A stretch of DNA of 40,263 bases, taken from a virus. Each line of letters opens with the position of its first letter. The stretch's first letter is position 1. A model generated the notes under the pieces. That model was not told the origin of the DNA and did no database searches. It saw only the letters and a list, made by a program, of their open reading frames with translations. Where the stretch lies: positions 1 through 40,263 of the IMG/VR virus record IMGVR_UViG_3300009691_000002; one strand, given 5' to 3'. Shown one piece after another: positions 16,044 to 37,162 of the stretch. A program made the position numbers and the translations under genes.

Positions 16044-17063
16044 CTAAATGCCGGTGATGCCTGTGAGTTTGCCGTGCCTCTTTGGGTTGTTCGTGATGAA
16101 CTGGCCGCCGAAGTAGATGTGGCCCACGACCGAGGCCGAGTTCGCGGGGATGATCCAGTCGGACCAGCTGAAGCCGAGCCCGAGCGGAGCCTCGTAGTCG
16201 TTGCCCTCGATCTGCGACTTGTACGCCACCGGCTTCGCGTTGAAGTAGGGGAGCGCGTACCAGTCCACGAAGTTCTCGTTGACGAAGATGAAGTTCTGCG
16301 CGGTCGCCTTCTCGTCCGCGACGATAGGCTTTCCGTTGTACTCGAGAGCCGAGAACCCTGTCCCGCCGACGAGTCCCTTCATCCTGGACGCCTCCTTCAC
16401 GATCCGCTCTTGCGGGCGGAGGAGCTGTCCGTAGAAGCTGAACACCGCCTCCGTGCAGTATGCTATCGACGGCTTTTGCGAGCCGGAAGCCACCGCGTTC
16501 CAGAGGGTGTCGATTAGCGCGAGCGTGAGCGTGCCGCCCGAAGCGGTCACCGTCGACTGTAGGGTCGAGTAGGTAGAGCGCGAGAGGCCGCCAATGCTGG
16601 AGACCGAGTCGCCGTTGTCCACCAAGGCCGCGAGGCCCAGGGGGTCCTTAGAGCTGTTTCCGGTCCCGTCCGCGTAGAAGATGGTGCCGAGGTCGTCGGC
16701 CATGTCTTCGGTGTCGGACTGGATGGTGAGCTTCATGAGGTCGAGCACCTTGTCCTCGGAGTCGGCCACAGAGAGCTCGTCGCCAGGGAGCGCGCACGTG
16801 ATCTGGTAGAACGCGGGCGTGAACTCCAGGAACTGGCGGTTGTCCGATGCGGAAGTGGAGAAGCTGTCGAAGCCCCGGAACGATGTCCCGGTGCTGTTCT
16901 TCGACACCTTAATAGGCGATCGAAGGACGCGGCCGCTCCATTTCTTCCCCGCACGGACGACTCGCTGGAAGAGAACGTTTGAGTTGAGGATCGTGTCCAC
17001 GACGAACGGGAGGTATTTCTCCTTCACGGTCGTCTGGATACGTTGTCCGTATAATTCTGCCAT
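16044..17063 (-). CDS. Major capsid protein
   Basis: 339 residues. It begins MAELYGQRIQTTVKEKYLPF and continues with a basic strand (AGKKWSGRVLRSPIKVSKNS), a helix of DLMKLTIQSDTEDMADDLGT followed by IFYADGTGNSSKDPLGLAAL, and late segments (YCTEAVFSFYGQLLRPQERI, FVNENFVDWYALPYF). These are the long helix, domain and loop features of HK97-fold capsid proteins in phages with a separate scaffold. The size is right for a shell protein made without a fused scaffold. Its place between the scaffold-like gene and head accessory genes supports the call. A-rich upstream sequence (AAACACAAAACC) and no Shine-Dalgarno. Confidence 0.85.
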   Translation of the reverse strand: MAELYGQRIQTTVKEKYLPFVVDTILNSNVLFQRVVRAGKKWSGRVLRSPIKVSKNSTGTSFRGFDSFSTSASDNRQFLEFTPAFYQITCALPGDELSVADSEDKVLDLMKLTIQSDTEDMADDLGTIFYADGTGNSSKDPLGLAALVDNGDSVSSIGGLSRSTYSTLQSTVTASGGTLTLALIDTLWNAVASGSQKPSIAYCTEAVFSFYGQLLRPQERIVKEASRMKGLVGGTGFSALEYNGKPIVADEKATAQNFIFVNENFVDWYALPYFNAKPVAYKSQIEGNDYEAPLGLGFSWSDWIIPANSASVVGHIYFGGQFITNNPKRHGKLTGITGI

Positions 17064-20196: not shown

Positions 20197-22899
20197 CTAC
20201 GGCGCCGCGCGCCAGTCCGCGCCGACGTCCTCGAGCGCGTCAAGAGAGGCCTCGACGGCCGCCTTGTGCTCGGCCTCCCTCGCCTCGTCCGCGGCCTTCT
20301 GTTGCGGGCTCATGAACATGGCGTTCGGGTCGAAGGACACGGTCTGGTTCGGGTCCACCATGTAGCTGCGCGGCGCCGGCACACTCACGGGAGCCTTCAC
20401 GATCGACCCGGAGCCGGAGAACCTGCGCATGCCAACCCGCCAGAACACCGTCGCCATGGCGCGGTGGTCCCTTGCGCTCCGCACCCACTTGTAGCCCCTG
20501 ACCTGGTTCGTGTCCGGGTCAAACACCTTGATCTTCGACAGGTTGTTCCAGTCGAGCCAGTACTCGTACCAGTCGTTCTCGGACCCGTGCACAACGATGC
20601 GCCTGTCCCGGAACTCGTCCACCACGAGCTGCACCATGCGGTTCCTGTCCGCTGTGACCGCCCCGAACTCGTCGCCCTTTCCCCACTTGACGAGCTCCTT
20701 CGTCTTCCTGTCGCCGGCCAGCGAGCAAAGGAAGACACGGCCAGGGTACCTCTCGTGGAACTTTCTGGACCCTATGAGGTCCCCGCCCTGGTCGACTATC
20801 GCTATGCACTTCGGCCAGCGCTTCATGTAGCCGTCCAGCGTCCCGTAGTCGTCGCAGTCTCCCTGCATGAACAGCCCCTTCTGGTTGCCGAGCACGTAGT
20901 CGAGCCGTAGCCCGGTGTCCACGCCCATGACCACGCGCTCGTCGGCCCCCGGGGCCCAGAGCTTGCCGGTGAGGTTCTGCAGGAAGTCCTTGCGGAGCAG
21001 CTTCGCCTTTCCGTCCGCGTGCGGGAGCCCCAGCACCTTCGTGAAGAAGAACTCCTTAGTCGTCTCGGGGTTCCTGTACCTAGCGACTATGTCGGCGGCG
21101 GACACCCACGGCGCCATGAGCATGGAGACCCAGTATCCGCTCCAAGCCCTGTCCGGGTGCTTCGCCACCCACTGCCCGCCCTTGCGGACGTCGCTCGGGA
21201 GCCACCCACGGCACTTCTTGCACACGAACACCTCCCTGTCGACGTCCACGCTCATCCTGGCGGGGTTCTCGGCGTCCCAAGACAGGTACTGCCAGTGGGC
21301 GCAGTGCGGGCACTTCACGAACCAGTGCTTCTGGTCGCTCTTGAGCCAGTCGGAGTGCACGCCGGTCTCCGGGAGCGAGGGGTGGCTGAACGTGTGTATC
21401 TGCTTGAACTTGGAGTGCTGCAGGCGCGCCTGGTAGTCGGCGATGACGTCGAGCTTCGACGAGTCCTTCTCGTCGTGCACCAGCCGGTCTGCCGTGACCA
21501 TGATCGCGGCCTTCTTCGTCCAGGTGCCCCTGAAGTAAATTATACTGTCCCCGACGCGCTTGGACTCCACGCTGTCCTTGTCGGCCACGTCGGCGACCAT
21601 GCTCGGGTTGTTCGCTATGATGCGATTCACCTTGCCGCCTACGAACACACTGACGTCGGCATCGGTCGGAAGGGTATTACCTGTCCAGTAACAATGGCCT
21701 TTTCGACGCGCATAAAACGTCCCGAACGGCGTTCGCGGACACCAAACAATGCCCTTGTATTTTACCGTCTTAGGAAGTAATTCCCCCGTTTCTACCGACT
21801 TGAACTGAGTCATCCGAACCGTGTAACAACCATTCTTCCCTGGATTTATAACGCTCGGCACGTACCCAGCAAGAACAGCAATCATGCAAAGAGTATCTAC
21901 TGTTTGCTTGTTCTTTTGTGTTACAGCCCACGTCCCCGATCTATCAAGCCACCCATCAGCTTTCGCAAATGTATCGATAAACAGCTTGCATTGGCTCCTT
22001 GTAAGCTGTAATGCGAGCCTTGCGTCGGGAACTTTGTTTGGGAACCTTTCCCTGATTTCTTTCCCGAGTGCAAACGCAAAACGGAACGATACGCACCCGT
22101 TGTGCTTCATTGGGTACTCTTTCCACTTTACGTTCAAGCTCCTAAGCAACGATCTGATTTCGTCGCAGTACGGCGCGTTCACCCTTTCCGACTGCACAAT
22201 GATTATTGAGTTGCACTTCTTGCCGGAGCCTTTTTTCTGCTTTAGGTAGTGACCCTCCGCGAATACCCACGCCAGCAAAGCAACTTCATCATCTGTATAA
22301 AATGGGCTGATGGTCGCTCCACCGCGGTCTACCGATTTTGGTATGCGAGCATACTTGCCGATCATGTCTCTCGTTTCTCGAAAGAACATATTTCCATTTC
22401 CTCGATATGGTTGTAATAGCCATCGGTGATTCGGTGTCACCAACGCGCTAAAGTTTCGCGCTTCAAACTCAATACAATCCATGTCGACGTCTTTCCTAAA
22501 CACTTCCTGAAGTGGCGACCACTGGGCTGTCCCTTGCTTCGATAACGTGAGAATGATGTCGTTGGATTGGAGGTTTTCTTGCTTAAGGAACCCTCGTTGC
22601 GTCAGCGCCTCCGTTTCCTTATCCACGCAGTAGATGATATCAATCTTACGCCTCTTGGCGTCGTAATGGTTCTTCAGGATTGACGCGGTCGACAGACCCA
22701 CCTGCGCCGCCTTCATGATCGTGAGGTTCTGGCTCTGGTCCTCGTATATCGCCTCGAGGAACGGGTGCTCGTCGAAGTCAATGGGGTCGCCCTTCTCGTT
22801 CTTGACCCGCTCCCTTTCCAGCCAATCCTGGATGCCCAAGGTCAACATGGAGTCGTCCACGGCCCTCGCTTCCTTGACCTTGGTGTCCGGCTGGCTCAT
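20197..22899 (-). CDS. terL: Terminase large subunit (GpA-type) interrupted by an intein
   Basis: 900 residues; 582 after removing the intein (91-408). Extein signs of a lambda GpA-like packaging motor: Walker A-type KAAQVGLST (63-71), YTLPTDAD at the junction (90, 409-415), and a Walker B-like segment near TADRLVHDEKD (469-479). A zinc finger follows with CPHC (530-533) and CKKC (560-563), then an RNase H-like nuclease with acidic residues at MGVDTG (D661), VDQGGD (D703) and DHRA (D811). The protein cuts concatemers and pumps DNA through the portal. The ATG overlaps the stop of a 54-residue zinc protein (ATGA). The intein must splice out to restore the ATPase, so splicing could gate packaging. 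Confidence 0.9.
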   Translation of the reverse strand: MSQPDTKVKEARAVDDSMLTLGIQDWLERERVKNEKGDPIDFDEHPFLEAIYEDQSQNLTIMKAAQVGLSTASILKNHYDAKRRKIDIIYCVDKETEALTQRGFLKQENLQSNDIILTLSKQGTAQWSPLQEVFRKDVDMDCIEFEARNFSALVTPNHRWLLQPYRGNGNMFFRETRDMIGKYARIPKSVDRGGATISPFYTDDEVALLAWVFAEGHYLKQKKGSGKKCNSIIIVQSERVNAPYCDEIRSLLRSLNVKWKEYPMKHNGCVSFRFAFALGKEIRERFPNKVPDARLALQLTRSQCKLFIDTFAKADGWLDRSGTWAVTQKNKQTVDTLCMIAVLAGYVPSVINPGKNGCYTVRMTQFKSVETGELLPKTVKYKGIVWCPRTPFGTFYARRKGHCYWTGNTLPTDADVSVFVGGKVNRIIANNPSMVADVADKDSVESKRVGDSIIYFRGTWTKKAAIMVTADRLVHDEKDSSKLDVIADYQARLQHSKFKQIHTFSHPSLPETGVHSDWLKSDQKHWFVKCPHCAHWQYLSWDAENPARMSVDVDREVFVCKKCRGWLPSDVRKGGQWVAKHPDRAWSGYWVSMLMAPWVSAADIVARYRNPETTKEFFFTKVLGLPHADGKAKLLRKDFLQNLTGKLWAPGADERVVMGVDTGLRLDYVLGNQKGLFMQGDCDDYGTLDGYMKRWPKCIAIVDQGGDLIGSRKFHERYPGRVFLCSLAGDRKTKELVKWGKGDEFGAVTADRNRMVQLVVDEFRDRRIVVHGSENDWYEYWLDWNNLSKIKVFDPDTNQVRGYKWVRSARDHRAMATVFWRVGMRRFSGSGSIVKAPVSVPAPRSYMVDPNQTVSFDPNAMFMSPQQKAADEAREAEHKAAVEASLDALEDVGADWRAAP
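21676..22629 (-). mobile_element. Intein with LAGLIDADG homing endonuclease inside terL
   Basis: 318 residues, from C91 to N408 of the TerL precursor. Block A begins CVDKETEALTQRGFL. Block B is NFSALVTPNHRWLL with the TPNH motif. The two endonuclease motifs are LLAWVFAEG (acidic E215) and LFIDTFAKADG (acidic D315). The end is GHCYWTGN followed by Thr as the +1 nucleophile. The residue before the last Asn is Gly rather than the usual His, which may slow or alter Asn cyclisation. The DNA is visibly more AT-rich than the flanking terL sequence, a sign of separate origin. The insertion lies between Y90 and T409 in the conserved Y-TLPT motif. Confidence 0.9.
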
Positions 22900-23828: not shown

Positions 23829-24085
23829 AGCATCCTTTCCTTCAGCCAGACCATCGCGTAAAGCATGTACGCTCCGCCGTATGCGAGGATCGCCACTCCG
23901 ACGGCCAGCGACACGAGCGCCAGCACGGCGAATATGGCCACGTTCACCGAGTCCCACTTTACGGGCTCCGGCTCGACCATGAGCTCGTGGCAGTTCAGGC
24001 ACGGCACGACCCTCACAAGGGGGTCGGGCGTTGACCTGGAGTGCTTTGACCACTCGTGAAACCCTAATCCGCACTTCGTTGTCAT
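23825..24085 (-). CDS. Small membrane protein with N-terminal Cys/His cluster
   Basis: 86 residues from ATG at 24083-24085 (ATGA overlap with the preceding 38-residue gene). The N-terminal ~45 residues hold a possible zinc site (CGLGFHEWSKH and CLNCHE), and residues about 50-78 form one long membrane segment (VNVAIFAVLALVSLAVGVAI). It could be a membrane anchor or holin-like protein. No signal peptidase site is obvious. Confidence 0.55.
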   Translation of the reverse strand: MTTKCGLGFHEWSKHSRSTPDPLVRVVPCLNCHELMVEPEPVKWDSVNVAIFAVLALVSLAVGVAILAYGGAYMLYAMVWLKERML

Positions 24086-24198
24086 GCCACGGCCAGGAGG
24101 AGAAGCAACAGCCACAAAGGGCTCACCGTGGCCGCGAGCGTCACCGAAAGCATTGCTATGCCCAACCTCACCGCTATTGTGACATTGTCCACAGTCAT
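24082..24198 (-). CDS. Tiny hydrophobic membrane peptide
   Basis: 38 residues, almost entirely a membrane segment (LGIAMLSVTLAATVSPLWLL followed by LLLLAVA). Stop overlaps the next gene's start (ATGA), and the start lies 5 nt after the TerS stop. Could be a small holin-like or regulatory membrane peptide. Length is close to noise, but the exact overlap supports translation. Confidence 0.45.
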   Translation of the reverse strand: MTVDNVTIAVRLGIAMLSVTLAATVSPLWLLLLLLAVA

Positions 24199-24203
24199 AT
24201 AGT

Positions 24204-24740
24204 TTATTCCTTTTTAGCTCCCTCCAGCTCTTTGTTCACCGACTCAAGCGCCCGACGCTGCCGGATCTCCCGGCGCCGCTTGATGTAGTCCTGGTAGGCG
24301 ACGACTTCCTCCGCGCTCGGCTCCTGCCCGCCGTCCTTAAAAACTTCCCCGGAGTGCTCCAGCTTGAGCTTCTCCCCGTACACCTCCGGCTCCCTCTTCT
24401 CGAGAAAGCGCCAGGAGTCGGGTATGCTCCCGATGACGAGCGCCCTCCCCTCGGCGTCGTGCGTCTTCCCGTGGATCCGCAGGGCTATATTCCTCTTTGC
24501 CTGCAACGGCAGCTTCTCCTGAATGGCGGCTATCTCGTCGGAAAGCACTTGGTTGTTCTTCAGCCACTCGTAATAGGTGTCGGGGTGTATCTCCGCATAA
24601 AAGCACGCCTGCCTGACGTTGGCGCCTATCGCGAACGCCTCCTTGAGCTTTCCGACACGCTCCTCGGTGAGCTTGGAGACGCCCTCGCCTATCCTGGCCC
24701 TCCACTTCTTGCCTCTTTTTTTGTGATATCTGGCTGGCAT
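24204..24740 (-). CDS. terS: Terminase small subunit
   Basis: 178 residues. An N-terminal basic stretch, then a helix-turn-helix (GKLKEAFAIGANVRQACFYA, IHPDTYYEWLKNN) that recognises the packaging start on phage DNA. The C-terminal part has the hallmark FLEKREPEVYGEKLKLEHSG of small terminase and phage DNA-packaging proteins, and a charged tail. It would form a ring that marks viral DNA and hands it to TerL. Unusually, six small genes separate it from terL (22896-24198). Confidence 0.8.
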   Translation of the reverse strand: MPARYHKKRGKKWRARIGEGVSKLTEERVGKLKEAFAIGANVRQACFYAEIHPDTYYEWLKNNQVLSDEIAAIQEKLPLQAKRNIALRIHGKTHDAEGRALVIGSIPDSWRFLEKREPEVYGEKLKLEHSGEVFKDGGQEPSAEEVVAYQDYIKRRREIRQRRALESVNKELEGAKKE

Positions 24741-24750
24741 GTTGGCTTGA

Positions 24751-25278
24751 CTACGGCTTTAGTGCGAAGTACTGCCTCTCGGGACTGCCCCTTCGCCTCA
24801 GGAACGTCACCACGTTGTTGTTAAGGGCTTTTGCGAGCACCACCTCGAAGTAGGGCTGGTAAGGCGCTTCCTGCTCGAACGTGGCGGAGTTTACGGCTAT
24901 CAGGCCGGTCGATATGGCGTACAGGTCGTGCAGGAAGTCGTCTTTGAATATGCCTGGGTGCGGTGTGGCACCTTGGTAGACGTCCACGATGATGTAGTCA
25001 AATGTGCTGCCGACCTCTCGAAGGGCATGCGCGAAGCCGAACGCGTCTCTTCCATCGTCGCACGTCAGGCTCCGTCCGTGGCCCCATACCTTGTCGATGA
25101 GATCCGGTACGGTGTGCGCCCCGCATCCGAGCATGAGGATGTCCTTCGGCTTCACCGGAGGGATCATGAGCGACCAATACGTGAATCCGAAGTGGGACTC
25201 CGGCGGATACACCGACTGCACGGCACCGCCTTCGACAACATAGCTTACGCCCTCGTGTTGTAAAAACTTTGGAGCCAT
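24751..25278 (-). CDS. Spermidine-synthase-like class I SAM-fold protein
   Basis: 175 residues. It has a Rossmann glycine motif DILMLGCGAH (about residues 46-55), an acidic loop CDDGRDAF (73-80) and FDYIIVDVYQGATPHPGIF (93-111), the order seen in spermidine/spermine-synthase-like enzymes. The N-terminal beta part (YVVEGGAVQSVYPPE, then a Phe/Tyr-rich helix) also fits. The gene is short for full polyamine synthases and may instead be a methyltransferase or aminopropyl-transfer-like enzyme of unknown substrate. It is the first gene downstream of promoter 25390. Phage carriage of this fold is uncommon; it may alter host polyamines or methylate a small molecule. Confidence 0.55.
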   Translation of the reverse strand: MAPKFLQHEGVSYVVEGGAVQSVYPPESHFGFTYWSLMIPPVKPKDILMLGCGAHTVPDLIDKVWGHGRSLTCDDGRDAFGFAHALREVGSTFDYIIVDVYQGATPHPGIFKDDFLHDLYAISTGLIAVNSATFEQEAPYQPYFEVVLAKALNNNVVTFLRRRGSPERQYFALKP

Positions 25279-25389
25279 AAAAACTGCGGCAGAGCTATTA
25301 GTTAGAACGTTTTAATGCTTGAGAACGATTGGGATATGATCTTGTCTTTGACAAGGTCGCGTAGTTCCTCTAAGGTTCGCCCTGGTCCT
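25279..25389 (-). other. Leader of the terS-terL transcript with inverted repeat
   Basis: The 111 nt between promoter 25390 and the SAM-fold gene contain an inverted repeat at 25338-25358 (GATCTTGTC, 3-nt loop, GACAAGGTC; 9 bp on the plus strand with one G-T pair). There is no U-tract. It may be a regulatory hairpin or protein-binding site. A 29-codon frame here has no canonical start. Confidence 0.35.
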
Positions 25390-25398
25390 ATTATACCA
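25390..25398 (-). promoter_or_regulatory. Extended -10 promoter overlapping the vsr stop
   Basis: The minus strand reads AAAAGTGGTATAATAGG; TGGTATAAT is a perfect extended -10. The TAA stop of vsr is part of the TATAAT box, so the promoter cannot be moved without changing the gene end. It should drive the SAM-fold gene, terS, the small genes and terL. Confidence 0.75.
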
Positions 25399-25783
25399 CT
25401 TTTGCCATGTCACGGACACCCTTGAGACCGTGCTCCCAGACCACGACCACCTCATAGCCCATTCGCCTAAGCGTCCTCGCATTCCTAGAGTGCCTCTCCC
25501 TGTTCCTCCTTATTTTCTCCGCCCAGAACTCGGAGTTCGTCTTCGGACACCTGAAGTGACTCCTGCATCCGTGCCAGAAACACCCATGAACGAAAACGAC
25601 CCTCCCGCCTATGAGCACGTCGCCCTCTATAATCCCCCCCACGGACAAGAACCTCGGCCACATCCTATGCTTAACCCTGTTTCCCTTGAGCCAGCCGTGA
25701 AGCAGCATCTCCGACCTCGTCCTCCTTGACCGGATCCTCGACATGACCTCGCTCCTCCTTTTTTTTGAAAGCACGTCAGCCAT
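25391..25783 (-). CDS. vsr: Very short patch repair endonuclease
   Basis: 130 residues. The Vsr hallmark FVHGCFWHGCRSH is present (H66, C68, W70, H71, C73), followed by FWAEKIRRNRERHSR and the C-terminal GYEVVVVWEHGL. The catalytic Asp matches D55 in IIEGDVLIGG. Vsr nicks the T strand at T:G mismatches made when 5-methylcytosine deaminates. It begins inside the last 8 nt of the cytosine methyltransferase gene, the classic dcm-vsr pairing, so the two are co-made. It carries the usual N-terminal ADVLSKKRRSEVMSRIRSR. Confidence 0.9.
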   Translation of the reverse strand: MADVLSKKRRSEVMSRIRSRRTRSEMLLHGWLKGNRVKHRMWPRFLSVGGIIEGDVLIGGRVVFVHGCFWHGCRSHFRCPKTNSEFWAEKIRRNRERHSRNARTLRRMGYEVVVVWEHGLKGVRDMAKVV

Positions 25784-26735
25784 TTTTTTGCGCCAACAGC
25801 TTCCCCCACTCCGTCCCGAAAGCCTGGCCAGCGTACTCCTTGAAGAGGTACCTGCTCACGTCGCAATGCACCGCGTTCCCAAGCGCAAACCACCTCGCTC
25901 CGTTAGACTGCCCGGCGGTCCACCCGTCAGGAAAGCCCTGGAGCCGCTCGCCCTCGAGCGCCGTCAGGAACCTCCACCTCCCGTCCGCCTCCTGGACTAT
26001 CTTCTGCTGCGAGCTTGGGTTTCGCCCACCGCCCCCGCTGATCCCGGTCATAAGCGTCCCCATCCTGTCGTACCCGCCGACTATCGAGTATGAGTACGGG
26101 TCTCGCTGCTCTATCTTGTCCCGCATGCGGTTCTTCGCGGTCTGCCTCAGCCACACAAAGTTCTTTTCGTCGCCGTCCCGAAAGTCCCTGAACCTTTTTG
26201 TGCCGTCGACTATCCTCGGCCTAGGGTTCGTGACCTCCGTCTTCGACCCCAGGAATATCACCCTCTCCCGGTTCTGCGCGGATCCGTAATACAGTGCATT
26301 GAGCAAGACGCACCGCACGTTGTATCCCGCGTTCTCAAATAGCCGGAACACCTTGCGAAACGTCGCTCCGCCACCATGGTTGAGTATCCCCTTCACATTC
26401 TCGAGCGCGAAGAACTTCGGCTGCTTCGCGACGAGTATCCTGTGTATGTAAAGAACCATGGCGCCCTTCTTGTCCTTGTGGTCTTCGAAGCCCCTTCGCA
26501 GGCCCGCGATGCTGAAACTCTGGCAAGGAAAACCCCCGGTAAGCACGTCGAAGTCCGGCATGTCGTACGGGTCGATCTTGGTCACATCACCAAAGTTCTC
26601 GTGCGCCGGATAATGCCTCTGGTATATCTCGGAAGACGACTTCTTGGTCTCGGAAAAGCCGACACACTTCGCGCCGACCTCCTCAAGCCCAACATCAAGC
26701 CCCCCTATTCCCGTGAAAAGCGAGAAGTACCTCAT
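25776..26735 (-). CDS. DNA cytosine-C5 methyltransferase (Dcm-type)
   Basis: 319 residues. All key motifs are visible: I FSLFTGIGGLDVGLEEVG (4-21), IV GGFPCQSFSIAG (67-78, catalytic C71), VI ENVKG (112-116), VIII QNRERV (154-159) and X ALGNAV (284-289). The target-recognition region between VIII and X is about 125 residues. It methylates C5 of cytosine at an unknown site; no partner restriction enzyme is seen nearby. Adjacent vsr and ParB-like genes indicate a phage modification cassette, probably protective against host restriction (inference). The gene overlaps the previous stop by 4 nt (ATGA). Confidence 0.92.
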   Translation of the reverse strand: MRYFSLFTGIGGLDVGLEEVGAKCVGFSETKKSSSEIYQRHYPAHENFGDVTKIDPYDMPDFDVLTGGFPCQSFSIAGLRRGFEDHKDKKGAMVLYIHRILVAKQPKFFALENVKGILNHGGGATFRKVFRLFENAGYNVRCVLLNALYYGSAQNRERVIFLGSKTEVTNPRPRIVDGTKRFRDFRDGDEKNFVWLRQTAKNRMRDKIEQRDPYSYSIVGGYDRMGTLMTGISGGGGRNPSSQQKIVQEADGRWRFLTALEGERLQGFPDGWTAGQSNGARWFALGNAVHCDVSRYLFKEYAGQAFGTEWGKLLAQKNG

Positions 26736-27385
26736 GCCTTTTTTCTCATCAAGGCGACCAGCTTCTTATGGTCGAGCACCCCGCCCTGGACGCCGAAAAA
26801 CTTCTTCGCCTCCTCGAACTCGCCTATCGAGTCGAAGTAGAAGCTCGCCCTCGCCTTGAGCCTCGGCGTCTCCGGGGCCTCGACCGTCGCAACGCTGTAC
26901 TTTCCGGAGTCGATCTCGCGCTCCCGCGACAACTTGGCTATCTCGTCCGCACTCTCGTGCGCCTCGAGCTCGTCCACGTTGAACCCGGTCATCTCGAGCA
27001 TGTCCGCGCTAAGAAGCCTGAGCTCCATGACCGCCTTCCCCATATCCCACCCGCTCTCGTTCAGCTTGTTGTCCGCCAGCCGGTACGTCCTCTCCTGCTC
27101 CTCGGTCATCGGAACCGACGAGGCCCCCCCGCATACGGTCCTCCCGGCGTCATCCATCACCCATAAGGGATCTAGGCCATATTCCACACCATACTTCTTA
27201 GACGCAATGTACCTTCCGTGGCCAACTATGATGACCCCCGACTGGTTGACGACCACCGGCTGCCTCCACCCGACCTCCTTGACTATCCGCGCAAGCTGAA
27301 TCAACTGCGCGTCCGTGTGCACCTTCGCGTTCTTCTCATACGGCTTTATCTCTTTTGTCTCGGAAAAAGAATCTTCCCCTTTCAT
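26732..27385 (-). CDS. ParB/Srx-domain protein associated with DNA modification
   Basis: 217 residues. The N-terminal part has the ParB-N pattern PYEKNAKVHTDAQLIQLARI, VGWRQPVVVNQSGVIIVGHG and RYRLADNKLNESG-like (here TYRLADNKLNESGWD) typical of ParB-type proteins encoded beside phage DNA methyltransferases. It could supply DNA-binding, NTP-binding or nicking to the modification system. The C-terminal 80 residues are extra (VATVEAPETPRLKARASFYF). It overlaps the methyltransferase start by ATGA, so it is in the same unit. No partition system is visible, so plasmid-type segregation is unlikely. Confidence 0.7.
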   Translation of the reverse strand: MKGEDSFSETKEIKPYEKNAKVHTDAQLIQLARIVKEVGWRQPVVVNQSGVIIVGHGRYIASKKYGVEYGLDPLWVMDDAGRTVCGGASSVPMTEEQERTYRLADNKLNESGWDMGKAVMELRLLSADMLEMTGFNVDELEAHESADEIAKLSREREIDSGKYSVATVEAPETPRLKARASFYFDSIGEFEEAKKFFGVQGGVLDHKKLVALMRKKA

Positions 27386-27398
27386 CTTACTTTGTTAG

Positions 27399-27725
27399 TT
27401 AGAGATCCAAGTCGCCGAACTCGCTTCCCGTGGTCCTCGACAATCCTGGTCCGCGTCCGAACCCCCTCGTGCTTCCCTCCGGCTCCTCAAGCTTGAACGC
27501 GAGGCACGCCCGCGTCCTATAGCCCATGACCCGCAGGAGCTCGCGGATCGCCTCCGCGGTCTTGCCCTGCTTCCCTATGACCTTCCCCATGTCTTCCTGG
27601 GCCACCCTTACGGACAGGAGAACCCCCATGTCGTCGTTCCTCTCCTCGATGGACACGGCGGACGGGTCGTCCACTATGTTCGAGATTATGTGCTGCAAAA
27701 AGTCCTTTGCGCTTGCGTTTTCCAT
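27399..27725 (-). CDS. khpA: KH-domain RNA-binding protein, KhpA family
   Basis: 108 residues from ATG at 27723-27725; a longer upstream frame is a basic shadow of groEL. It has the KhpA form: a helix (DFLQHIISNIVDDPSAVSIE), strand GVLLSVRVAQEDMGKVIGKQ with the GKQG loop at 51-54 that contacts RNA, and the second helix AEAIRELLRVMGYRTRA. KhpA proteins bind RNA, often with KhpB, and influence cell division and small-RNA activity in several bacteria. This version ends FKLEEPEGSTRGFG followed by a Gly/Arg stretch and an acidic GDLDL. The REL-LRVMG...EEPEGS region resembles CPR bacterial KhpA proteins as I remember them. Phage KhpA is rare to my knowledge. Confidence 0.85.
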   Translation of the reverse strand: MENASAKDFLQHIISNIVDDPSAVSIEERNDDMGVLLSVRVAQEDMGKVIGKQGKTAEAIRELLRVMGYRTRACLAFKLEEPEGSTRGFGRGPGLSRTTGSEFGDLDL

Positions 27726-27748
27726 TTTTTTGTTGTTAGTTTTTAACG

Positions 27749-29314
27749 CTACTCTTCCTGTTCCTCCACGCTCCTCGGCTTCTTCTTCGTCTCGACGATG
27801 ATTCCGGAGCTCGTAAGAAGTATGGTGGCTATCGAAACCGCGCTCTCGACCCCGGCCACGACCACGTCCAGAGGGTCCATCACGCCCACGTCGAAGAACG
27901 GCCCGGACTCCCCGGTGACCACGTTCTTGACCCATCCGGGCTTCCGGTCGACCAGGTCAGTCCCCATGTTCTCGTGAAGCTGTCTCGACGGATACTTGAG
28001 CGCCTCGTTGAGTATGGGGCTCGAGGTCTTCACGCCCGCGAGCGCGACGCCGGCGCCGCACACCACCCCGCCCTGGTACGCGACCTTCACGGCGTTCACG
28101 GCGTCCTCCACCTTGTACTTGAGGGCCTTCTGCTCGTTCTCGGTCGGGGCCCCGACCTTGATGGTTGCTATGCTGTTGGTGAACCTACCGAGCCTATGAG
28201 ACAGATCCTTCCTTTGCTTCTCGTTCTTCTCCTCGAGGATCGCGAACTTCAACTGCTTGACCGCCCTTGAGACCGCCGCCTTGCTCCCCTTCGGGCCGAC
28301 TATGACCGACTCCTCGCGCCGACTTATGAACCGCTCCGCCCTGCCAAGGTCCGCAATTTCCGCGGACTCCAGCTTGTCCCCCTTCTCGGAGGAGAACACC
28401 TTGGCTCCCGTGAGGAGCGCGAGGTCCTCGAGCAAAACCTTCCTGCCATCCACGTTCGGGAGGTTTATGGCCACGGACGGGAAAGTCCCCGGCTTCCGCG
28501 TTTCCGGGTTCAGCACGTTCGGCAAGTTTATGACCAAGGTCGCGAGCGCGTGTTGCTCCACGTTCTCCGCCACCACCACGAGGCCGCGCTTACCGGCGGC
28601 GGCCATCTTGTTTATTATGGGGAAGAGGTCTGCGTTCTCCGTGAGCCGGTAATCCGTGAGAAGAAAGTGCGGCTTTTCTATGACCGACTCCATGCGCTCC
28701 GGGTTGTTGACCATGTACGGGCTGATGTACCCGCGCTCGATCCTAACTCCGTCGGACATCTCGACGTATGTCTCCAATGTCGGGGACTTGTCGATTGTGA
28801 CCACACCATCCTTTCCGACCTTCTCGTAAATACCGGCTATCATGTCCGCGATCGCCTCGTTGTCGAACGCCACAAGCGCAACCTTCTTGAGATCCTCCCT
28901 CGTCTTGATGTCCTTTTTCTGCTTGAGAAGCTGTTCCTTGACCTCCCCAAGCCCCCTGAGGAGCTCCGCTGATATCCTGCGTCCGTCCCGCTTCGAGTAT
29001 CGCGCCACTTCGTTCACAATGGCCTGCAGTATGATGAGCGAACCGGTCGTGCCGTCGCCCACCCGGTCATTCGTCTTGATCGCCGTCTCGCGCACGACGT
29101 TCACCACGGCATTCTCGGCCGGATCCTCGAGCTCGAAGTCGCGGGCTATCTGCACGCCGTCGTCCACGACCATCTTGTAGAGCATCTTGGAGATGATGAC
29201 CTTGTTGCCGGCCGGGCCGAGCGTCGGTCGGATCAAGTCCACCATTTTGTTGACGGCGGAACGGATCGTCTCGAATGTTTTGTCCTGCACGATGATCGTC
29301 CTGTTTTCAGACAT
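27749..29314 (-). CDS. groEL: Chaperonin GroEL, phage-encoded, divergent
   Basis: 521 residues, against about 548 for E. coli. Nucleotide-binding elements are kept: TLGPAGNKV (31-39), DDGVQIARDFEL (51-62, D52), GDGTTG (86-91, D87) and KVEDAVNAVK (401-410, D404). The apical domain keeps GYISPYMVNNPE (195-206) and ALATLVIN (256-263). It carries a longer loop at about 263-290, where INLPNV appears twice (262-267 and 283-288). The C-terminus ends in basic KKKPRSVEEQEE without the GGM repeats. The ring would fold phage proteins, perhaps capsid or fibre. The groES gene is upstream in the same unit, with three small genes between them, and khpA follows. Confidence 0.92.
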   Translation of the reverse strand: MSENRTIIVQDKTFETIRSAVNKMVDLIRPTLGPAGNKVIISKMLYKMVVDDGVQIARDFELEDPAENAVVNVVRETAIKTNDRVGDGTTGSLIILQAIVNEVARYSKRDGRRISAELLRGLGEVKEQLLKQKKDIKTREDLKKVALVAFDNEAIADMIAGIYEKVGKDGVVTIDKSPTLETYVEMSDGVRIERGYISPYMVNNPERMESVIEKPHFLLTDYRLTENADLFPIINKMAAAGKRGLVVVAENVEQHALATLVINLPNVLNPETRKPGTFPSVAINLPNVDGRKVLLEDLALLTGAKVFSSEKGDKLESAEIADLGRAERFISRREESVIVGPKGSKAAVSRAVKQLKFAILEEKNEKQRKDLSHRLGRFTNSIATIKVGAPTENEQKALKYKVEDAVNAVKVAYQGGVVCGAGVALAGVKTSSPILNEALKYPSRQLHENMGTDLVDRKPGWVKNVVTGESGPFFDVGVMDPLDVVVAGVESAVSIATILLTSSGIIVETKKKPRSVEEQEE

Positions 29315-29322
29315 ATTGGTAT

Positions 29323-29529
29323 TTAATTATAGCCACTCTCGATCATGAAATCGACGAACCGACGGAGAGTATGCACGTCGGCCGCTCGGTCTGGCAAGTC
29401 TATTCCTTGATGGTGCGACGCGAGGAAGAACTCGACAGCGGTCCTTGCCGCCTTCTTGTGCTGGTGCGTCGGAAAAAGTATAGACAGCATGTCCTGAATC
29501 GTTGACTCTTCTGGTATGAAATGGCTCAT
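29323..29529 (-). CDS. Small helical protein between groES and groEL
   Basis: 68 residues (MSHFIPEESTIQDMLSILFP and onward), mostly alpha-helical and His/Ala-rich. It overlaps the upstream gene by ATGA and ends 8 nt before groEL. No recognised domain. Could be a folding-substrate adaptor or an unrelated passenger. Confidence 0.55.
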   Translation of the reverse strand: MSHFIPEESTIQDMLSILFPTHQHKKAARTAVEFFLASHHQGIDLPDRAADVHTLRRFVDFMIESGYN

Positions 29530-29783
29530 ATTATTATCGTCATCTCCTTAGGCCTGTAAATCTTGTGATACACCATCCGCGTCGCTCCCCCTCTTTGCGC
29601 AAACTGCCGGACGTGCGCCTTAAGGTACTCGTCGTTATCAACCCTTCCCTTGGACCCCTTCGTCCAGCGGAATCTCTTGCCACATATAACGCACTTTTCC
29701 CACTTCGCCGTCTTGGTGTTGGCGAGGTACCTCATGTTGTGCGGCTGTCCGTAGAGGCAGCCAAGGTCACGTCCGTATATCAT
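29526..29783 (-). CDS. Small zinc-finger-like protein in the chaperonin unit
   Basis: 85 residues from ATG at 29781-29783. A CVICGKRFRWTKGSKGR segment (one CxxC, followed by basic residues and DNDEYLKAHVRQF with His) looks like a zinc finger or HNH-like half site; the C-terminus is basic. Its start lies 17 nt inside the previous gene. It could bind nucleic acid; no function is known. Confidence 0.5.
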   Translation of the reverse strand: MIYGRDLGCLYGQPHNMRYLANTKTAKWEKCVICGKRFRWTKGSKGRVDNDEYLKAHVRQFAQRGGATRMVYHKIYRPKEMTIII

Positions 29784-29937
29784 GCTTGGTTCGGCCCCTC
29801 CGTCCCTTGATGTGCAAGTAAACCTGCCCCCGCGTGAAGTCGATATGCGATCTCTCGGCTTGGTCATGGTGCGGGTCGTACTGATCAAGGAACCACTCAA
29901 GGAGCCAGTATAGGGTTTTTAGTTTGAGACTGTTCAT
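29767..29937 (-). CDS. Small basic protein next to groES
   Basis: 56 residues (MNSLKLKTLYWLLEWFLDQY, then a His/Asp-rich stretch and a basic end). Start chosen at 29935-29937 because it overlaps the groES stop as ATGA. It has a helical, hydrophobic N-terminus and RGQVYLHIKGRRGRTKH near the end. Not recognised. Confidence 0.55.
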   Translation of the reverse strand: MNSLKLKTLYWLLEWFLDQYDPHHDQAERSHIDFTRGQVYLHIKGRRGRTKHDIRT

Positions 29938-30224
29938 TCGATCGTGGCGAGAACCCACTCATCGAGAAGCAGGACGTAGTCGACCTCGTTCCCGCTCTCG
30001 GTAATCTTGATGTTCTCTCCGGAATAAACCCCGTAAATGACGTGGTCGCCATTCTTGATGTCCTTGATCTCCGAGCCAACAGCAACCACAACACCGATTG
30101 CCTTCTTGTCCTGGTCGACATTCGTCGGCTTTGATATCCCGTACTCCGAAGTCCTCGCCTGCTCCGGGTCAGGTCTTACGAGTATGTTCTTGCCACGGGG
30201 AATTATTTTAACTTTTTTGCTCAT
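29934..30224 (-). CDS. groES: Co-chaperonin GroES, phage-encoded
   Basis: 96 residues, the normal length of the family. The core matches Cpn10: KNILVRPDPEQ at the N-terminus, a mobile loop at about 21-42, GVVVAVGSEIKDIKNGDHV and the final LLLDEWVLATIE. The mobile loop (SEYGISKPTNVDQDKK) lacks the usual hydrophobic Ile-Val-Leu tripeptide that docks on GroEL, having Gly-Ile-Ser instead, which suggests pairing with the divergent phage GroEL rather than the host ring. It is ATGA-coupled to a membrane protein gene upstream and to a small gene downstream. Confidence 0.88.
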   Translation of the reverse strand: MSKKVKIIPRGKNILVRPDPEQARTSEYGISKPTNVDQDKKAIGVVVAVGSEIKDIKNGDHVIYGVYSGENIKITESGNEVDYVLLLDEWVLATIE

Positions 30225-30475
30225 ATTAGCTCGCTTACTGGAGTGTCCCTTCCCTCGCGCGAGTTGCGCTCGACTATACCGCGCCTCACCGCCTCGGCAT
30301 CAGTCTCCGGGTTGACTATGAAGCCCCTCGGCCGAGGTCCTATGTTAGACAAGTTCCTCTGGGCTACTGACGCAACCCTCTCCAACGGGCTCCTGAAGTA
30401 GGCAAGAACGACAAACGCAAGCGCCGATATGGCGATGCCCGCAACGAATCCGATTGCGAAAACGACGAGATTCAT
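30221..30475 (-). CDS. Small membrane protein
   Basis: 84 residues. One N-terminal membrane helix (about 3-28, VVFAIGFVAGIAISALAFVV) and a soluble C-terminal part with many charged residues (PETDAEAVRRGIVERNSREG). The orientation with the soluble part in the cytoplasm is likely. ATGA overlap with groES. Similar small proteins are common in phages; role unknown. Confidence 0.55.
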   Translation of the reverse strand: MNLVVFAIGFVAGIAISALAFVVLAYFRSPLERVASVAQRNLSNIGPRPRGFIVNPETDAEAVRRGIVERNSREGRDTPVSELI

Positions 30476-30476
30476 G

Positions 30477-30734
30477 CTATTCGCTTGGGTTAATCACGCC
30501 CCCCTCCTGTATCGGCGGGGTGTCCTGCGCCTTTGCCCCCCTCAAATCGTCGAATATGATTGGTTTCGCGGCGACAGTGAAGCCTACGCAAGGATCCTTC
30601 GCCTGAATGAAGACCGGCTGGGCTCCGAGCCCGAGCTTGTACTTTGCCAGGAGTCCGATGAACTCCGCGTTGAACCCCTTTACTCGTTCACTTAGGTCCT
30701 CGACTTCCCCGCTCTCCTTGTGTTTTTTTGACAT
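30477..30734 (-). CDS. Small protein of unknown function
   Basis: 85 residues from ATG at 30732-30734. A longer reading of the same frame to 30935 exists, but it runs through the gene at 30742-30888 in a poorer frame, so I reject that start. Acidic helical N-terminus (KESGEVEDLSERVKGFNAEF) and a C-terminus with LGAQPVFIQAKDPCVGFTVA. No match recognised. Its stop is 1 nt before the next ATG (TAGCATG). Confidence 0.5.
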   Translation of the reverse strand: MSKKHKESGEVEDLSERVKGFNAEFIGLLAKYKLGLGAQPVFIQAKDPCVGFTVAAKPIIFDDLRGAKAQDTPPIQEGGVINPSE

Positions 30735-30741
30735 AAAATGG

Positions 30742-30888
30742 TTATTTACCCCAGCGAGCCTTGCCGCCGAGTTTTGCGATCTTCGCCATATAGGCCTTGC
30801 CGCGCTTGCGGACGACCGACCTGCCGCCGCGCCTTCCAAGCTCGGCCGCCATGATTCGCCTCTCTTTTTTTGTTGCCTGTTTTTCCAT
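30742..30888 (-). CDS. Small basic Gly-rich (GG-repeat) protein
   Basis: 48 residues (MEKQATKKERRIMAAELGRR, then GGRSVVRKRGKAYMAKIAKL and a GGKARW end). This resembles the small Gly-Gly repeat proteins (LGRxGG...KIAKLGGKARW) found in many bacteria and phages, often linked with stress or DNA binding. It is the first gene after promoter 31072 and heads the transcript that leads into groES. Strongly basic, so nucleic-acid binding is possible. Confidence 0.6.
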   Translation of the reverse strand: MEKQATKKERRIMAAELGRRGGRSVVRKRGKAYMAKIAKLGGKARWGK

Positions 30889-31102
30889 GACTTTGACTTA
30901 CTGTGAGCAGAGCCGGGTGGATTTGGTTCGGGCATTTCAACGGCTTGATAGCCCTATCACGCAAGCAACCTTCGTCCTAACGGTCGACGTCCACTCGCCA
31001 CCACCAGTTTGCCGTACTCTTGTTATCGGGGTGCTACCCCGCGGGCCCTGCTTACAAGAAGCCATGCACACATTTTATCACGGACGCTCGGCTCCACAAC
31101 AT
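30889..31102 (-). other. Intergenic region upstream of the chaperonin operon
   Basis: This 214-nt gap contains the promoter at 31072 and a perfect hairpin at about 31026-31040 (CGGGGT, 3-nt loop, ACCCCG) without a U-tract, next to GGGCCC. No tRNA or convincing gene is seen. The hairpin lies in the transcript leader, where it might affect expression of the chaperonin unit. Confidence 0.4.
31072..31099 (-). promoter_or_regulatory. Promoter for the chaperonin operon
   Basis: Minus strand: TTGTGG (31094-31099), a 16-bp spacer, then TGATAAAAT, an extended -10 (TGnTAAAAT). Transcription would start near 31065 and lead to the 48-residue gene, groES and groEL. Weaker than 40093. Confidence 0.5.
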
Positions 31103-31618
31103 CTATTCTGTGGATAACTCCTCCCCTACTTCACCACCGCGAAGCGGCTCGAGTCCGTAGTTCTCCGTCGGTGGCGCCTCGACCCCGGTCAGTCGCTCGA
31201 TATCCAGTATGTACTGGCAGAACTCGGCGACCCCGAGCTCCGTGGTGCTCTTCTTGAGCCACACCTTCTTGCCATAGGCCTCAAACAGCCCCTTGTTGAG
31301 GAACTCCCCCTTGAACCGCTCATGAAGCACCTCAATGTAGTCCTTGTTGCGCTCCTCGCCACCCTCGCCAGCGATCAGCGGAAGGTATACGCCCCAGTAA
31401 TATCTGTTCTGCGCGTCGGTGCGCTTCGGCTTGCGGTTGTGTACCACAAGCGACACCTGCTCTCCATCCTTGAACTTCGAAAGCTGGTGCCGGTACCACC
31501 TGGGGCTTTTCACCACGAGCTTGGGGCCCGCGAGGCCGTCGGGATTGTGCACCACGGCGGCGAAGCTCTGCGTGTACGTCACATTGTCTGGTTTGGTTGG
31601 TGTCTTGTTTTTCCTCAT
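31103..31618 (-). CDS. NinB/Orf-like recombination protein
   Basis: 171 residues. The pattern HNRKPKRTDAQNRYYWGVYL, IEVLHERFKGEF and KKSTTELGVAEFCQYILDIE, with TGVEAPPTENYG near the end, matches NinB/Orf-type recombination mediators of lambdoid and other phages, in which R-x-x-x-QNRYYW and the STTxL strand are typical. These small proteins bind single-stranded DNA and help exchange SSB for recombinase. A partner Bet-type annealing protein is encoded 6 kb upstream. It overlaps the upstream gene by ATGA. The match is by motif only. Confidence 0.55.
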   Translation of the reverse strand: MRKNKTPTKPDNVTYTQSFAAVVHNPDGLAGPKLVVKSPRWYRHQLSKFKDGEQVSLVVHNRKPKRTDAQNRYYWGVYLPLIAGEGGEERNKDYIEVLHERFKGEFLNKGLFEAYGKKVWLKKSTTELGVAEFCQYILDIERLTGVEAPPTENYGLEPLRGGEVGEELSTE

Positions 31619-32388
31619 ACTTCAAGTTCTTTTTTGAGGTCTTCGAGGGCTTGGTTGTATGCCTCAAGAGGGCCGTACTTTTCGTTTAGCACCCCCTCCA
31701 TTGCAGATAGCGTTTCTTTGCTCACCGCGTCTGTTGGAATAGAATCTAACAGCCGCCTTGCGTCAGATCGTAAACCTGCTATGAAAGTTACTTTCATTAC
31801 CTCAATCTTCTCCAAAATACGCTTTCTTTCTTGCTTCATGCCTCGCTGACGAGACTCGTTGGCTAAGTAGAGAGCGTTTTCTTCCATTTCTTCCATGACT
31901 TTTTCACGCTGACGAGAGAGAAGAGCACGTACCCACTTCTTAACCTCTGCACACGTCCAAACTTCTTCCGAATCTAGTCGTTTGTCCTGTTCCCATATTT
32001 CATCGAACTCCTCATCCCAGTCCTCGACTGATTCGTCGGGCTTACTTTCTGGGCAATCTGGATGATAATGTTTCTCGCTTCCTAATTCGCAAGGACAGTC
32101 GGTTCCTACGGGTTCTGGCTTCTCAACAACCGTTATCGAAGAATCTTCCGAAGATATTTTATTTAAGAACTCTTCTACCTGCTTATAAGAACCAACGCCG
32201 CGCGATACCTCATTCTCTTCACAGCGAAACCTAGAACACGTCATCTTTTTTGGTAGATGGCCGAATATACGCAAGTGCGTTTCTACTCCGTCCCAGTTAT
32301 CCTCACCAGTAAGACGCCAACCAATCCTGTTTGCTTTTTCTTTCCACTCACAGCATTGGCTTACTTCTTTTTTGGGGTTGGTGGTCAT
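31615..32388 (-). CDS. Unknown acidic coiled protein of the AT-rich region
   Basis: 257 residues. Cys/His-rich N-terminus with possible metal sites (CCEWKEKANRIGW, CSRFRCEENE, CPCELGSEKHYHPDCPES), an acidic middle (DWDEEFDEIWEQDKRLDSEE) and a C-terminal helical region with heptads (EKVMEEMEENALYLANESRQ). No family recognised. Codon usage is visibly AT-richer than in the structural genes. ATGA coupling to both neighbours suggests it is translated. Confidence 0.5.
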   Translation of the reverse strand: MTTNPKKEVSQCCEWKEKANRIGWRLTGEDNWDGVETHLRIFGHLPKKMTCSRFRCEENEVSRGVGSYKQVEEFLNKISSEDSSITVVEKPEPVGTDCPCELGSEKHYHPDCPESKPDESVEDWDEEFDEIWEQDKRLDSEEVWTCAEVKKWVRALLSRQREKVMEEMEENALYLANESRQRGMKQERKRILEKIEVMKVTFIAGLRSDARRLLDSIPTDAVSKETLSAMEGVLNEKYGPLEAYNQALEDLKKELEV

Positions 32389-33120
32389 AGTTTTAGATTT
32401 GCTTTTATAGCTACGTTAAGTGCTTTCAGCTTCTCCAGTTCTTTTTCCAGCCCTCCAATCTCGTAGTCAAAACCTACTCTATTGTCCAAAACCATTTTCA
32501 CGGCTTCTCCCAATTCTTTTCCTTTGCGCCAGCTAGCCAATACTTCAAGGCCACTCGCTTTCTCAAACTCCCCAACCTCGTTCTTATACGTCTCAAGCGT
32601 TTTTTTCGCATCGTCAATTTCTTTCTGAAACTTGACCCGTATCTCGGCCTTCGCTTTATCAACCTCGTTCCACAAAGTGCTTACTGGAATCGTTCCTTCC
32701 GTTGAACGCCTCAAAAGTCCTGCGATAAAAGATAGGTTGAGCTCGGCTTCCAAAAGTGGCGCTTGTTTCTTTCTATACAGCCGATTGCCGGTACCTGCTA
32801 CTTCAAAGTATCCCCAATTTTTCGGCAACTCGTCTATGGCGCAAACTTCTTTCGGCGCGACAAGCCACCAACGATTGCACCACTGCATCGCGTCCCCCCG
32901 ACTTTTCCGGGTTCTCAAACTCTCTCAAAAAGTCCTGCCTACTCACCTTGACCTCAAACCCATGTATCTCATGGTTCATGCTTGGATAAAGAGCAAACGC
33001 AACGCCGTCAATGTATCCGTTAAAACTCCCCACTCCACTCTTCGCTACTTCCGTGAAGAAAGCGTAAGCAGGAGGCGCGTACTTGTTGGCGAGTAGTGTT
33101 TTTATTTCCGAAGAGGTCAT
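32385..33120 (-). pseudogene. PD-(D/E)XK nuclease-like (MmcB-type) gene split by frameshift
   Basis: The first part (from ATG 33118-33120) gives IDGVAF and GFEVKVSRQDFLREF, with D39, E56 and K58 in a D...ExK arrangement. The frame then shifts at a run of six G (32894-32899 as C on the plus strand). The second frame continues with QWCNRWWLVAPKEVCAIDEL, PKNWGYFEV and a long coiled C-terminus ending at 32385. Together these make one MmcB-like protein with the usual D...ExK nuclease core followed by CDRWWLVAP and W-G-Y. One G fewer restores a single frame. Either a real frameshift mutation, a sequencing or assembly error, or, less likely, programmed slippage. The unshifted first frame stops at 32803. 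Confidence 0.6.
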
Positions 33121-33156
33121 ATGAGTAGTTGTTTAATATCTAGGGCTTGTAATTCT

Positions 33157-33390
33157 TTAACTGAAATATAACTCTCTCTTATACCAAGTTAATTCATTCA
33201 GTATCCTTTCTCTCGCCTCCTCCCCAATCCGTTTGAGCAGGGCTTCTTCGCGGGAATGGATGTATTCAAGAAGAATATCTGCTTTAACTGCATATAGGCC
33301 GTCATCAAATGGCTTTGGGGCGCGAAAATTAAAATTGAACTTCTCGTCCTGCTCCTCTTGAAATGTTTTGAGTAGGGTGGTCATGGTCAT
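33157..33390 (-). CDS. Small helical protein, unknown
   Basis: 77 residues (MTMTTLLKTFQEEQDEKFNF and onward); the C-terminal half is one charged helix (REEALLKRIGEEARERILNE). Start overlaps the upstream stop (ATGA). No domain is recognised. TGGTATAAG at its end (33178-33186) resembles an extended -10 but is also coding. Confidence 0.5.
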   Translation of the reverse strand: MTMTTLLKTFQEEQDEKFNFNFRAPKPFDDGLYAVKADILLEYIHSREEALLKRIGEEARERILNELTWYKRELYFS

Positions 33391-33908
33391 ACTTTTAACT
33401 TAACCTCTCCAAAGTAAACCTTCCCGTTTATTTTCACTTCCAAGGACAGAGTATCTAAGTGCGAGGGCTTGAGTTTCTTAGAACTACGCGCGAGGACCGC
33501 GGCAGGATTAGTAGAGCACCAATCGTTGCCGAGCCAGTAGTAGTTCCAGCTCCAGCGCCCGCCGTCCCAGCAGAGATACCGCACGTAGAGGCTGCCGTCC
33601 CGGTCACGATAGATGGTCCCCCAAAAATACACGTACTTGCCCTTCCACTCCTCGGGGATGAGCGAGGGATTGGCGAGTAGGTAGTCGAGAACATTGGCGT
33701 TTAAGACGCGGTGACTCCCCAGGATCTTGCGGAGGTCGTGCCCACCGATGCGTCCAGTTTTTTGGGCATCGGCCAGGAACAGGGCGACCTTCGCGGGGCT
33801 CCAGAGAAGCTGTCCGCCCTTCTGGTGATCCTCGACCGACCAACCTTCGGGAACGAAGGGGGCTTTGTCGCAGTTGATGATATGTTTTTCCTTCTTTTGT
33901 TTTGGCAT
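33387..33908 (-). CDS. Hypothetical protein of a CPR-like family (YVRYLCWDGGRW motif)
   Basis: 173 residues. Strongly patterned: KHIINCDKAPFVPEGWSVED, HQKGGQLLWSPAKVALFL, LNANVLDYLLANPSLIPEEW, and a beta region with WGTIYRDRDGSLYVRYLCWD, GGRWSWNYYWL. I recall near-identical patterns in hypothetical proteins of Parcubacteria and related CPR genomes, but this is unverified memory. The beta part with repeated Trp/Tyr may bind ligand or partner. It may be a host-derived gene. Confidence 0.55.
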   Translation of the reverse strand: MPKQKKEKHIINCDKAPFVPEGWSVEDHQKGGQLLWSPAKVALFLADAQKTGRIGGHDLRKILGSHRVLNANVLDYLLANPSLIPEEWKGKYVYFWGTIYRDRDGSLYVRYLCWDGGRWSWNYYWLGNDWCSTNPAAVLARSSKKLKPSHLDTLSLEVKINGKVYFGEVKLKV

Positions 33909-33916
33909 ACTTTTGT

Positions 33917-34045
33917 TTATGTTGTTCTTTCGAGTTTCTCAATTTCTTCTTTCAGTTCCTCTATCTCCTCTACTGCCTCGCAAAGTGGGCAGTATTGACC
34001 GTCAAAGACTATATCCGCATGCTTCCTGTCCTCACATATTTTCAT
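33917..34045 (-). CDS. Small Cys-rich coiled-coil protein
   Basis: 42 residues (MKICEDRKHADIVFDGQYCP, then LCEAVEEIEELKEEIEKLER and TT). One CPLC pair plus an earlier Cys and His could bind zinc, followed by an acidic heptad helix. A plausible tiny phage gene by composition and intact start and stop, but without overlap to neighbours. Confidence 0.5.
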   Translation of the reverse strand: MKICEDRKHADIVFDGQYCPLCEAVEEIEELKEEIEKLERTT

Positions 34046-34059
34046 AGTGTGGCGAGTGG

Positions 34060-34260
34060 TTATGGGGTTAATGACTTTTCAGATTGTTTTATGGCTTGCA
34101 TGATTTCCATAGCCACGGCGGGTACTATCGAATTACCCAACGCCTTTAGACGTTCGTTCCTTGATGACTTTCTTCTTCCACGTCCGTCCACCCAAAGTGA
34201 ACCATACTTTTCTTCAAACTCTTTAATTGCTCGATGTTTTAAACAATGCTCGCTTCTTCC
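34060..34260 (-). pseudogene. C-terminal remnant of a second cytosine-C5 methyltransferase
   Basis: A frame ending at 34060 reads RNERLKALGNSIVPAVAMEI, the motif X region of C5 methyltransferases (ALGNSIVP), preceded by SEHCLKHRAIKEFEEKYGSL. The catalytic and SAM-binding motifs (I, IV, VI, VIII) are missing, and the visible homology starts inside the 3' end of the nuclease gene at 34223. No normal start codon is in frame except a GTG giving 43 residues. Best read as the leftover end of a replaced gene. It also lies in the AT-rich stretch. Confidence 0.6.
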
Positions 34261-34714: not shown

Positions 34715-34780
34715 GCCAGTTTTCTGTCATAGTATCTCCTAAGTGCGGCGGCGTTCCTCTCCTTTCGGTGCGCTTTGACT

Positions 34781-36757: not shown

Positions 36758-36766
36758 ATCGATTTC

Positions 36767-36805: not shown

Positions 36806-36814
36806 GATAAACTG

Positions 36815-37144: not shown

Positions 37145-37162
37145 GTTCTTGTTTTTAGTTTG

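Follow-up and report, generated by a model that had tools for sequence, protein, structure and literature searches.

The locus described here raises the question of why a phage with a genome of about 40 kb should carry both the lid and the ring of a group I chaperonin, GroES and GroEL. Most discussion of phage chaperonins concerns giant phages, where coding space is ample. The window, that is, the whole stretch of DNA analysed, is the complete viral record IMGVR_UViG_3300009691_000002 of IMG/VR (40,263 bp, without terminal repeats), and its terminase, portal-like, major capsid, tail, RecT and replication genes all lie on the minus strand. Approximately 1.9 kb of the 40-kb genome is devoted to the chaperonin, and this across a widespread lineage. 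The phage probably makes a working group I chaperonin that serves as a dedicated folding chamber for virion proteins; on the best reading, this chaperonin is required in most hosts and is not intrinsic to the capsid. The genes central to this reading are:

27749..29314, minus strand: groEL, 521-amino-acid (aa) group I chaperonin (Pfam, NCBIfam and PHROG matches; residues; AlphaFold2 (AF2) model)
29934..30224, minus strand: groES, 96-aa co-chaperonin (Pfam Cpn10; homologue alignment; mobile-loop motif SEYGISKP)
20197..22899, minus strand: terminase large subunit (TerL), with a probable intein
16044..17063, minus strand: major capsid protein (MCP) (PHROG major head protein; MCP alignment; gene-content table)

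Both members of the pair, as named in the original prediction, proved genuine by Pfam and PHROG, and groEL also by NCBIfam. GroES matched Pfam Cpn10 at 49 bits (cut-off 21.1), and its mobile-loop motif, G-(I/L/V)-x-x-P, was found in nearly all homologues. GroEL matched Pfam Cpn60_TCP1 at 112 bits (cut-off 34.3) and the NCBIfam GroEL subfamily NF009487 at 374 bits (cut-off 352). The cut-off of the strict GroEL equivalog TIGR02348, a naming threshold and not a biochemical one, was missed (346 vs 582 bits). Judged by these profiles, the window GroEL is a divergent member of the group I chaperonins and not a housekeeping GroEL.

Across 33 GroEL homologues, the ATPase residues D52, D87, T30, G32, P33, T89, N479 and D495 were invariant, and D398 was kept in 31, the other two carrying N. 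The residues of the apical hydrophobic groove (Y199, Y203, L234, L237, L259, V263 and V264) were kept or replaced by hydrophobic ones in nearly all homologues, and the hinge glycines G192 and G410 were conserved across the clade. The AF2 model of GroEL had a predicted local distance difference test (pLDDT) score of 84 and a TM-score to GroEL of up to 0.86; its structure matches included PDB entries of the E434K (allosteric-defective) and K105A mutants. Approximately 14 equatorial residues are missing from the window GroEL, including the position of E434 in the inter-ring contact segment. This position was gapped in all 33 homologues and also in the aligned host GroEL L133, and is a feature not required of all GroELs. 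A GGM tail was found in none of the 33. The ratio of nonsynonymous to synonymous substitution rates (dN/dS) of groEL was 0.05-0.15 over the computable pairs, several pairs being saturated and some not computable; in the least saturated pair it was 0.05 for groEL and 0.07 for groES. Both genes are under purifying selection.

A scan seeded with the groEL alignment yielded 43 viral contigs, of which about 39 belonged to one clade with GroEL identities of 50-75%. In every relative long enough, a conserved small protein (p85), a protein with a transmembrane-like segment (TM), groES, a small Zn-knuckle-like protein (Zn) and groEL followed each other in this order on one strand, upstream of the terminase small subunit (TerS), TerL, portal and MCP genes. 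Among the loci with enough flanking sequence, Zn was present in 36/36, TM in 31/31 and p85 in 27/27, with TerL downstream in 31/31; groES was present in 33/33, an invariant linkage which suggests that the phage GroES would bind the neighbouring GroEL. Most genes of the module overlapped or were separated by tiny gaps, as is typical of genes transcribed together. As these contigs had been chosen by groEL, the scan was repeated with the Zn protein as seed. Downstream of Zn, groEL was then found in 40 of 41 contigs, and those groEL contigs that reached the groES position all carried groES. The genes kept in all seven near-full-length relatives compared were few and included groES, groEL and the virion genes; more variation was seen in recombination and replication genes. 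The best-conserved gene of the clade was that of the MCP (75-87% identity). The longest contigs clustered at 37.4-41.6 kb, so a genome size of about 38-42 kb is likely for the clade.

The original prediction had raised the possibility that groES and groEL were host DNA inserted by chimeric assembly, with edges near 27.4 or 31.1 kb. A second contig, L002, was continuous with the window over positions 20500-37226 (16,727 bp, gapless, 99.93% identity), spanning the entire chaperonin module, and a join at either edge is therefore very unlikely. In addition, dozens of independent relatives share the gene order and the phage GroEL clade stands apart from the host GroELs. Nothing was found in favour of host genes fused to a phage contig, and this explanation was rejected as having practically no chance of being correct.

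In a tree of 68 sequences, the phage GroELs formed one clade (support 100/100) on a long stem; moderately supported nodes (92/88 and 82/96) placed this clade within the Patescibacteria GroELs. The placement in this tree gives the phage GroEL a host-like ancestry. In the free tree, the GroEL of Caudoviricetes sp. cthkR962 (a phage described below) fell with those of hosts, which suggested an independent capture of groEL. The capture was not upheld by the approximately unbiased (AU) test, in which a joint clade with the window lineage was not rejected (p = 0.605).

The MCP of the clade was found in five contigs of metagenome-assembled genomes (MAGs), one from a Patescibacteria group, two from Parcubacteria, one from Jorgensenbacteria and one from Ignavibacteriae; four of the five thus belong to Patescibacteria. 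The two Parcubacteria bins also contain the phage-type groEL, on other contigs than the Cpn60 of the host itself. Among the closest named relatives by MCP is a TM7 phage. When the search for the MCP was widened to the phylum of G003 (380 genomes) and that of G004 (395 genomes), only the seed genomes matched. Probable hosts are ultra-small Patescibacteria, given the five MAG contigs, binning being weak, and the TM7 relative. For the poorly known phages of these bacteria, the chaperonin pair is a concrete genetic trait.

If the pair works as proposed, GroEL rings would bind non-native phage proteins in the conserved groove of the apical domain and be capped by the phage GroES through the G-(I/L)-x-x-P motif of its mobile loop; folding inside the chamber would be driven by ATP hydrolysis, for which D52, D87 and D398 are kept. 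The clients are most likely virion proteins, because the chaperonin genes sit in, and travel with, the head and packaging block. The leading candidate is the MCP, which would be followed by portal and tail proteins, all made in bulk in very small Patescibacteria cells. The MCP is the classical chaperonin-dependent phage client, as in T4 (gp23) and in lambda head assembly. The folding module of the original prediction is retained as a likely one for virion proteins, with a real pair and an order conserved in related phages; the independence from the host ring that it proposed is plausible, and the phage ring may either supplement or replace that of the host.

One branch of the clade lacks the pair. 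In L120 (a 38,974-bp record, searched whole and the same record as L210) and in L050 (a partial contig assigned to an Ignavibacteriae MAG), groES and groEL were absent between TM/Zn and TerL. The TM and Zn genes adjoin each other, and the p85-like/TM/Zn/TerS/TerL order is otherwise intact (L120, 3634-6339; L050, 1039-4225). In a quick TerL tree, this branch was nested in the groEL-bearing clade with one change; in the Shimodaira-Hasegawa-like approximate likelihood ratio test (SH-aLRT), the two nodes that enclose it scored 98 and 92 and the loss branch itself 99. On this tree, the absence is a single loss within the clade. The groEL-bearing and groEL-less sister groups form a natural test of which virion proteins need the chaperonin and whether host supply decides.

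Several observations weigh against a dedicated virion chaperonin. Without chaperonin genes, the MCPs of L120 and L050 are still 76-78% identical, and strict dependence of the MCP on GroEL was rejected on these grounds. L120, which is near full length and whose MCP is 76% identical, keeps core virion genes that are recognisable by BLAST; therefore, no core virion protein absolutely needs the chaperonin. Cpn60 was detected in 259 of 287 Patescibacteria genomes, so the hosts own a GroEL, and compensation for GroEL-less hosts was rejected as a general rule. Finally, the residues deleted from the equatorial domain include a ring-ring contact, and a standard double ring is therefore not assured; by analogy with the known biology of E. 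coli GroEL, ring pairing may be affected. The loss branch, a single event, suggests that the need for the chaperonin may be set by the host or by conditions.

An alternative, which we consider rather unlikely, is a general infection chaperonin without dedicated client, which would raise total folding capacity or replace scarce or inhibited host GroEL and whose substrates would be all phage proteins and some host proteins. It fits the small genomes of Patescibacteria, most of which have one Cpn60 match, as well as the groEL-less branch, which has the same virion genes and includes the Ignavibacteriae-binned contig, i.e., one from a host with a larger genome, a pattern that a need set by the host, and not by a client, would produce. 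It does not readily account for the position of the pair, which in all phages lies in the structural and packaging block by TerS/TerL and not among early genes, nor for its near-universal retention, diverse relatives included. A non-folding role, such as that of a decoy or moonlighting factor acting against host defence or in virion entry, would agree with the long stem of the phage clade (1.92 changes per site) and the altered inter-ring segment, but the ATP-site, G192/G410, apical-groove and GroES-loop residues are kept under purifying selection and groES is always retained alongside groEL, which makes such a role very improbable. The dedicated folding chamber for virion proteins is preferred. 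A bolder version of it, put forward tentatively and with more doubt than confidence, is that a lineage of approximately 40-kb Patescibacteria phages captured host groES and groEL once and made them an obligate virion-assembly factor, which could be dropped only after a move to a host with sufficient chaperonin. If so, carriage of a chaperonin would mark a folding bottleneck of ultra-small cells.

The other genes in and around the module are:

26732..27385, minus strand: ParB-like protein (PHROG 114 bits; 32/36 loci)
27399..27722, minus strand: KhpA-like KH-domain protein with a GKQG (GxxG) loop (Pfam KH_KhpA-B 67 bits, cut-off 32.1)
29323..29529, minus strand: sporadic open reading frame (ORF) of 68 aa upstream of groEL (relatives only in L003 and L010, besides L002)
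29526..29783, minus strand: Zn, small Zn-knuckle-like protein with invariant C, H and C-x2-C (C-x-H...C-x2-C) (36/36 loci; alignment; AF2)
29767..29937, minus strand: sporadic ORF of 56 aa, in ATGA overlap with the groES stop (relative only in L005, besides L002)
30221..30475, minus strand: TM, 84 aa, with an N-terminal transmembrane-like segment, directly upstream of groES (31/31 loci)
30477..30734, minus strand: p85, conserved small protein, 85 aa (27/27 loci with enough sequence)
30742..30888, minus strand: 'hel', Gly/Lys-rich protein, 48 aa (21/24 loci)

The original prediction had described a six-gene unit of groES, three small genes, groEL and a gene for a KH-domain RNA-binding protein, linked by ATGA overlaps and short gaps. 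The overlaps and gaps were as described, the three small ORFs between groES and groEL are present, and the KH_KhpA-B domain with its GxxG loop was confirmed. The same six-gene order was recovered in related phages only in part: groES-Zn-groEL was conserved, and the khpA, 56-aa and 68-aa genes were inconstant. The unit as a whole was not upheld, as two of the tiny genes are sporadic and Zn and TM outlast the loss of groES and groEL. KhpA, present at 16 of 36 loci, is no constant member of a chaperonin operon: where a ParB-like gene was found, khpA mostly abuts parB, and it often lies several hundred bases from groEL. In the window, its own start is at 27722; the ORF extended to 27935 overlaps groEL. 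The promoter proposed at 31072 was absent in a consensus scan, and an Rfam search before the module revealed no RNA element.

The three small genes upstream of groES were better conserved than the 56-aa and 68-aa ORFs inside the module. The Zn gene lies between groES and groEL throughout the groEL-bearing clade. The AF2 model of its product was confident (pLDDT 87), with no PDB match at E <= 0.001, and no relative of the protein was present among named phage records. Zn and TM are no chaperonin subunits, since both are retained where groES and groEL have been lost. Judged from gene content, the unit acting as a single piece is groES plus groEL, with the Zn gene merely always between them. Between Zn and groEL, HNH-endonuclease-like ORFs were noticed by eye in single relatives (L010, 3581-4096; L036, 9597-10004), which suggests homing insertions at that spot.

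Three further observations concern the remainder of the window. The probable intein in TerL (21676-22629, minus strand; residues 91-408) has C as its first residue and ends in HCYWTGN before T. It splits the conserved DIIY/TLPTD motif (break DIIY|TLPTD), which is uninterrupted in L120. The insert is absent from L003, L010 and L013 and present in L015, and L017 and L126 seemingly have two; Pfam gave no intein match. At 25391-26735 (minus strand), a C5-cytosine methyltransferase gene overlaps one for a Vsr-like mismatch endonuclease, forming a Dcm-Vsr type pair beside the ParB-like gene. A gene at 38929-39561 (minus strand), kept in six of seven relatives, has a sub-threshold Pfam match to a deaminase family (16.7 bits, cut-off 29.6).

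Phages that encode GroEL, alone or along with GroES, are already known (PMC7185714, PMC8390657), and 249 phage records, mostly large genomes, match the window GroEL. Precedents for phage chaperonins are T4 gp31 and phage EL (PMC7185714). T4 gp31 is a co-chaperonin tied to capsid protein folding that provides the lid only and uses the host GroEL, whereas lid and ring are both phage-encoded in the window phages. The GroEL-like chaperonins of phages EL (gp146) and OBP have been studied biochemically (PMC7185714, PMC5934643). The chaperonin of the giant phage EL shares about 22% identity with GroEL, and no GroES partner is known for it; the window clade always has GroES. OBP is likewise a giant phage, unlike the approximately 40-kb phages of the window clade. 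Large phages such as Flavobacterium phage immuto (160 kb; GroES and GroEL) and Vibrio phages (157 kb; groEL) also encode group I chaperonins, with genomes four times larger and GroELs only about 30% identical to that of the window; in immuto, groES directly precedes groEL as a linked pair, without the intervening Zn gene of the window clade. Closer in size are TM7 phage DolZOral124_53_65 (MG269973) and Caudoviricetes sp. cthkR962 (MW202566), complete circular genomes of 38.8 and 39.0 kb, each encoding a Cpn60 and a distant MCP relative (about 31%), their GroELs being very divergent from that of the window. In cthkR962, a GroES-like gene below the Pfam cut-off directly precedes groEL; in the TM7 phage, the gene before Cpn60 has no Cpn10 match. 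Environmental viral GroEL, from virioplankton and soil, has been reported as prevalent. Most of a soil set is placed near eukaryotic Hsp60 (PMC8390657), whereas the window clade lies among Patescibacteria GroELs. The literature on phages of Patescibacteria (candidate phyla radiation, CPR), as far as accessible, does not mention chaperonins. As far as the accessible literature shows, the GroEL clade of the window is previously undescribed, and its unusual point is the clade-wide retention of a chaperonin in a small genome.

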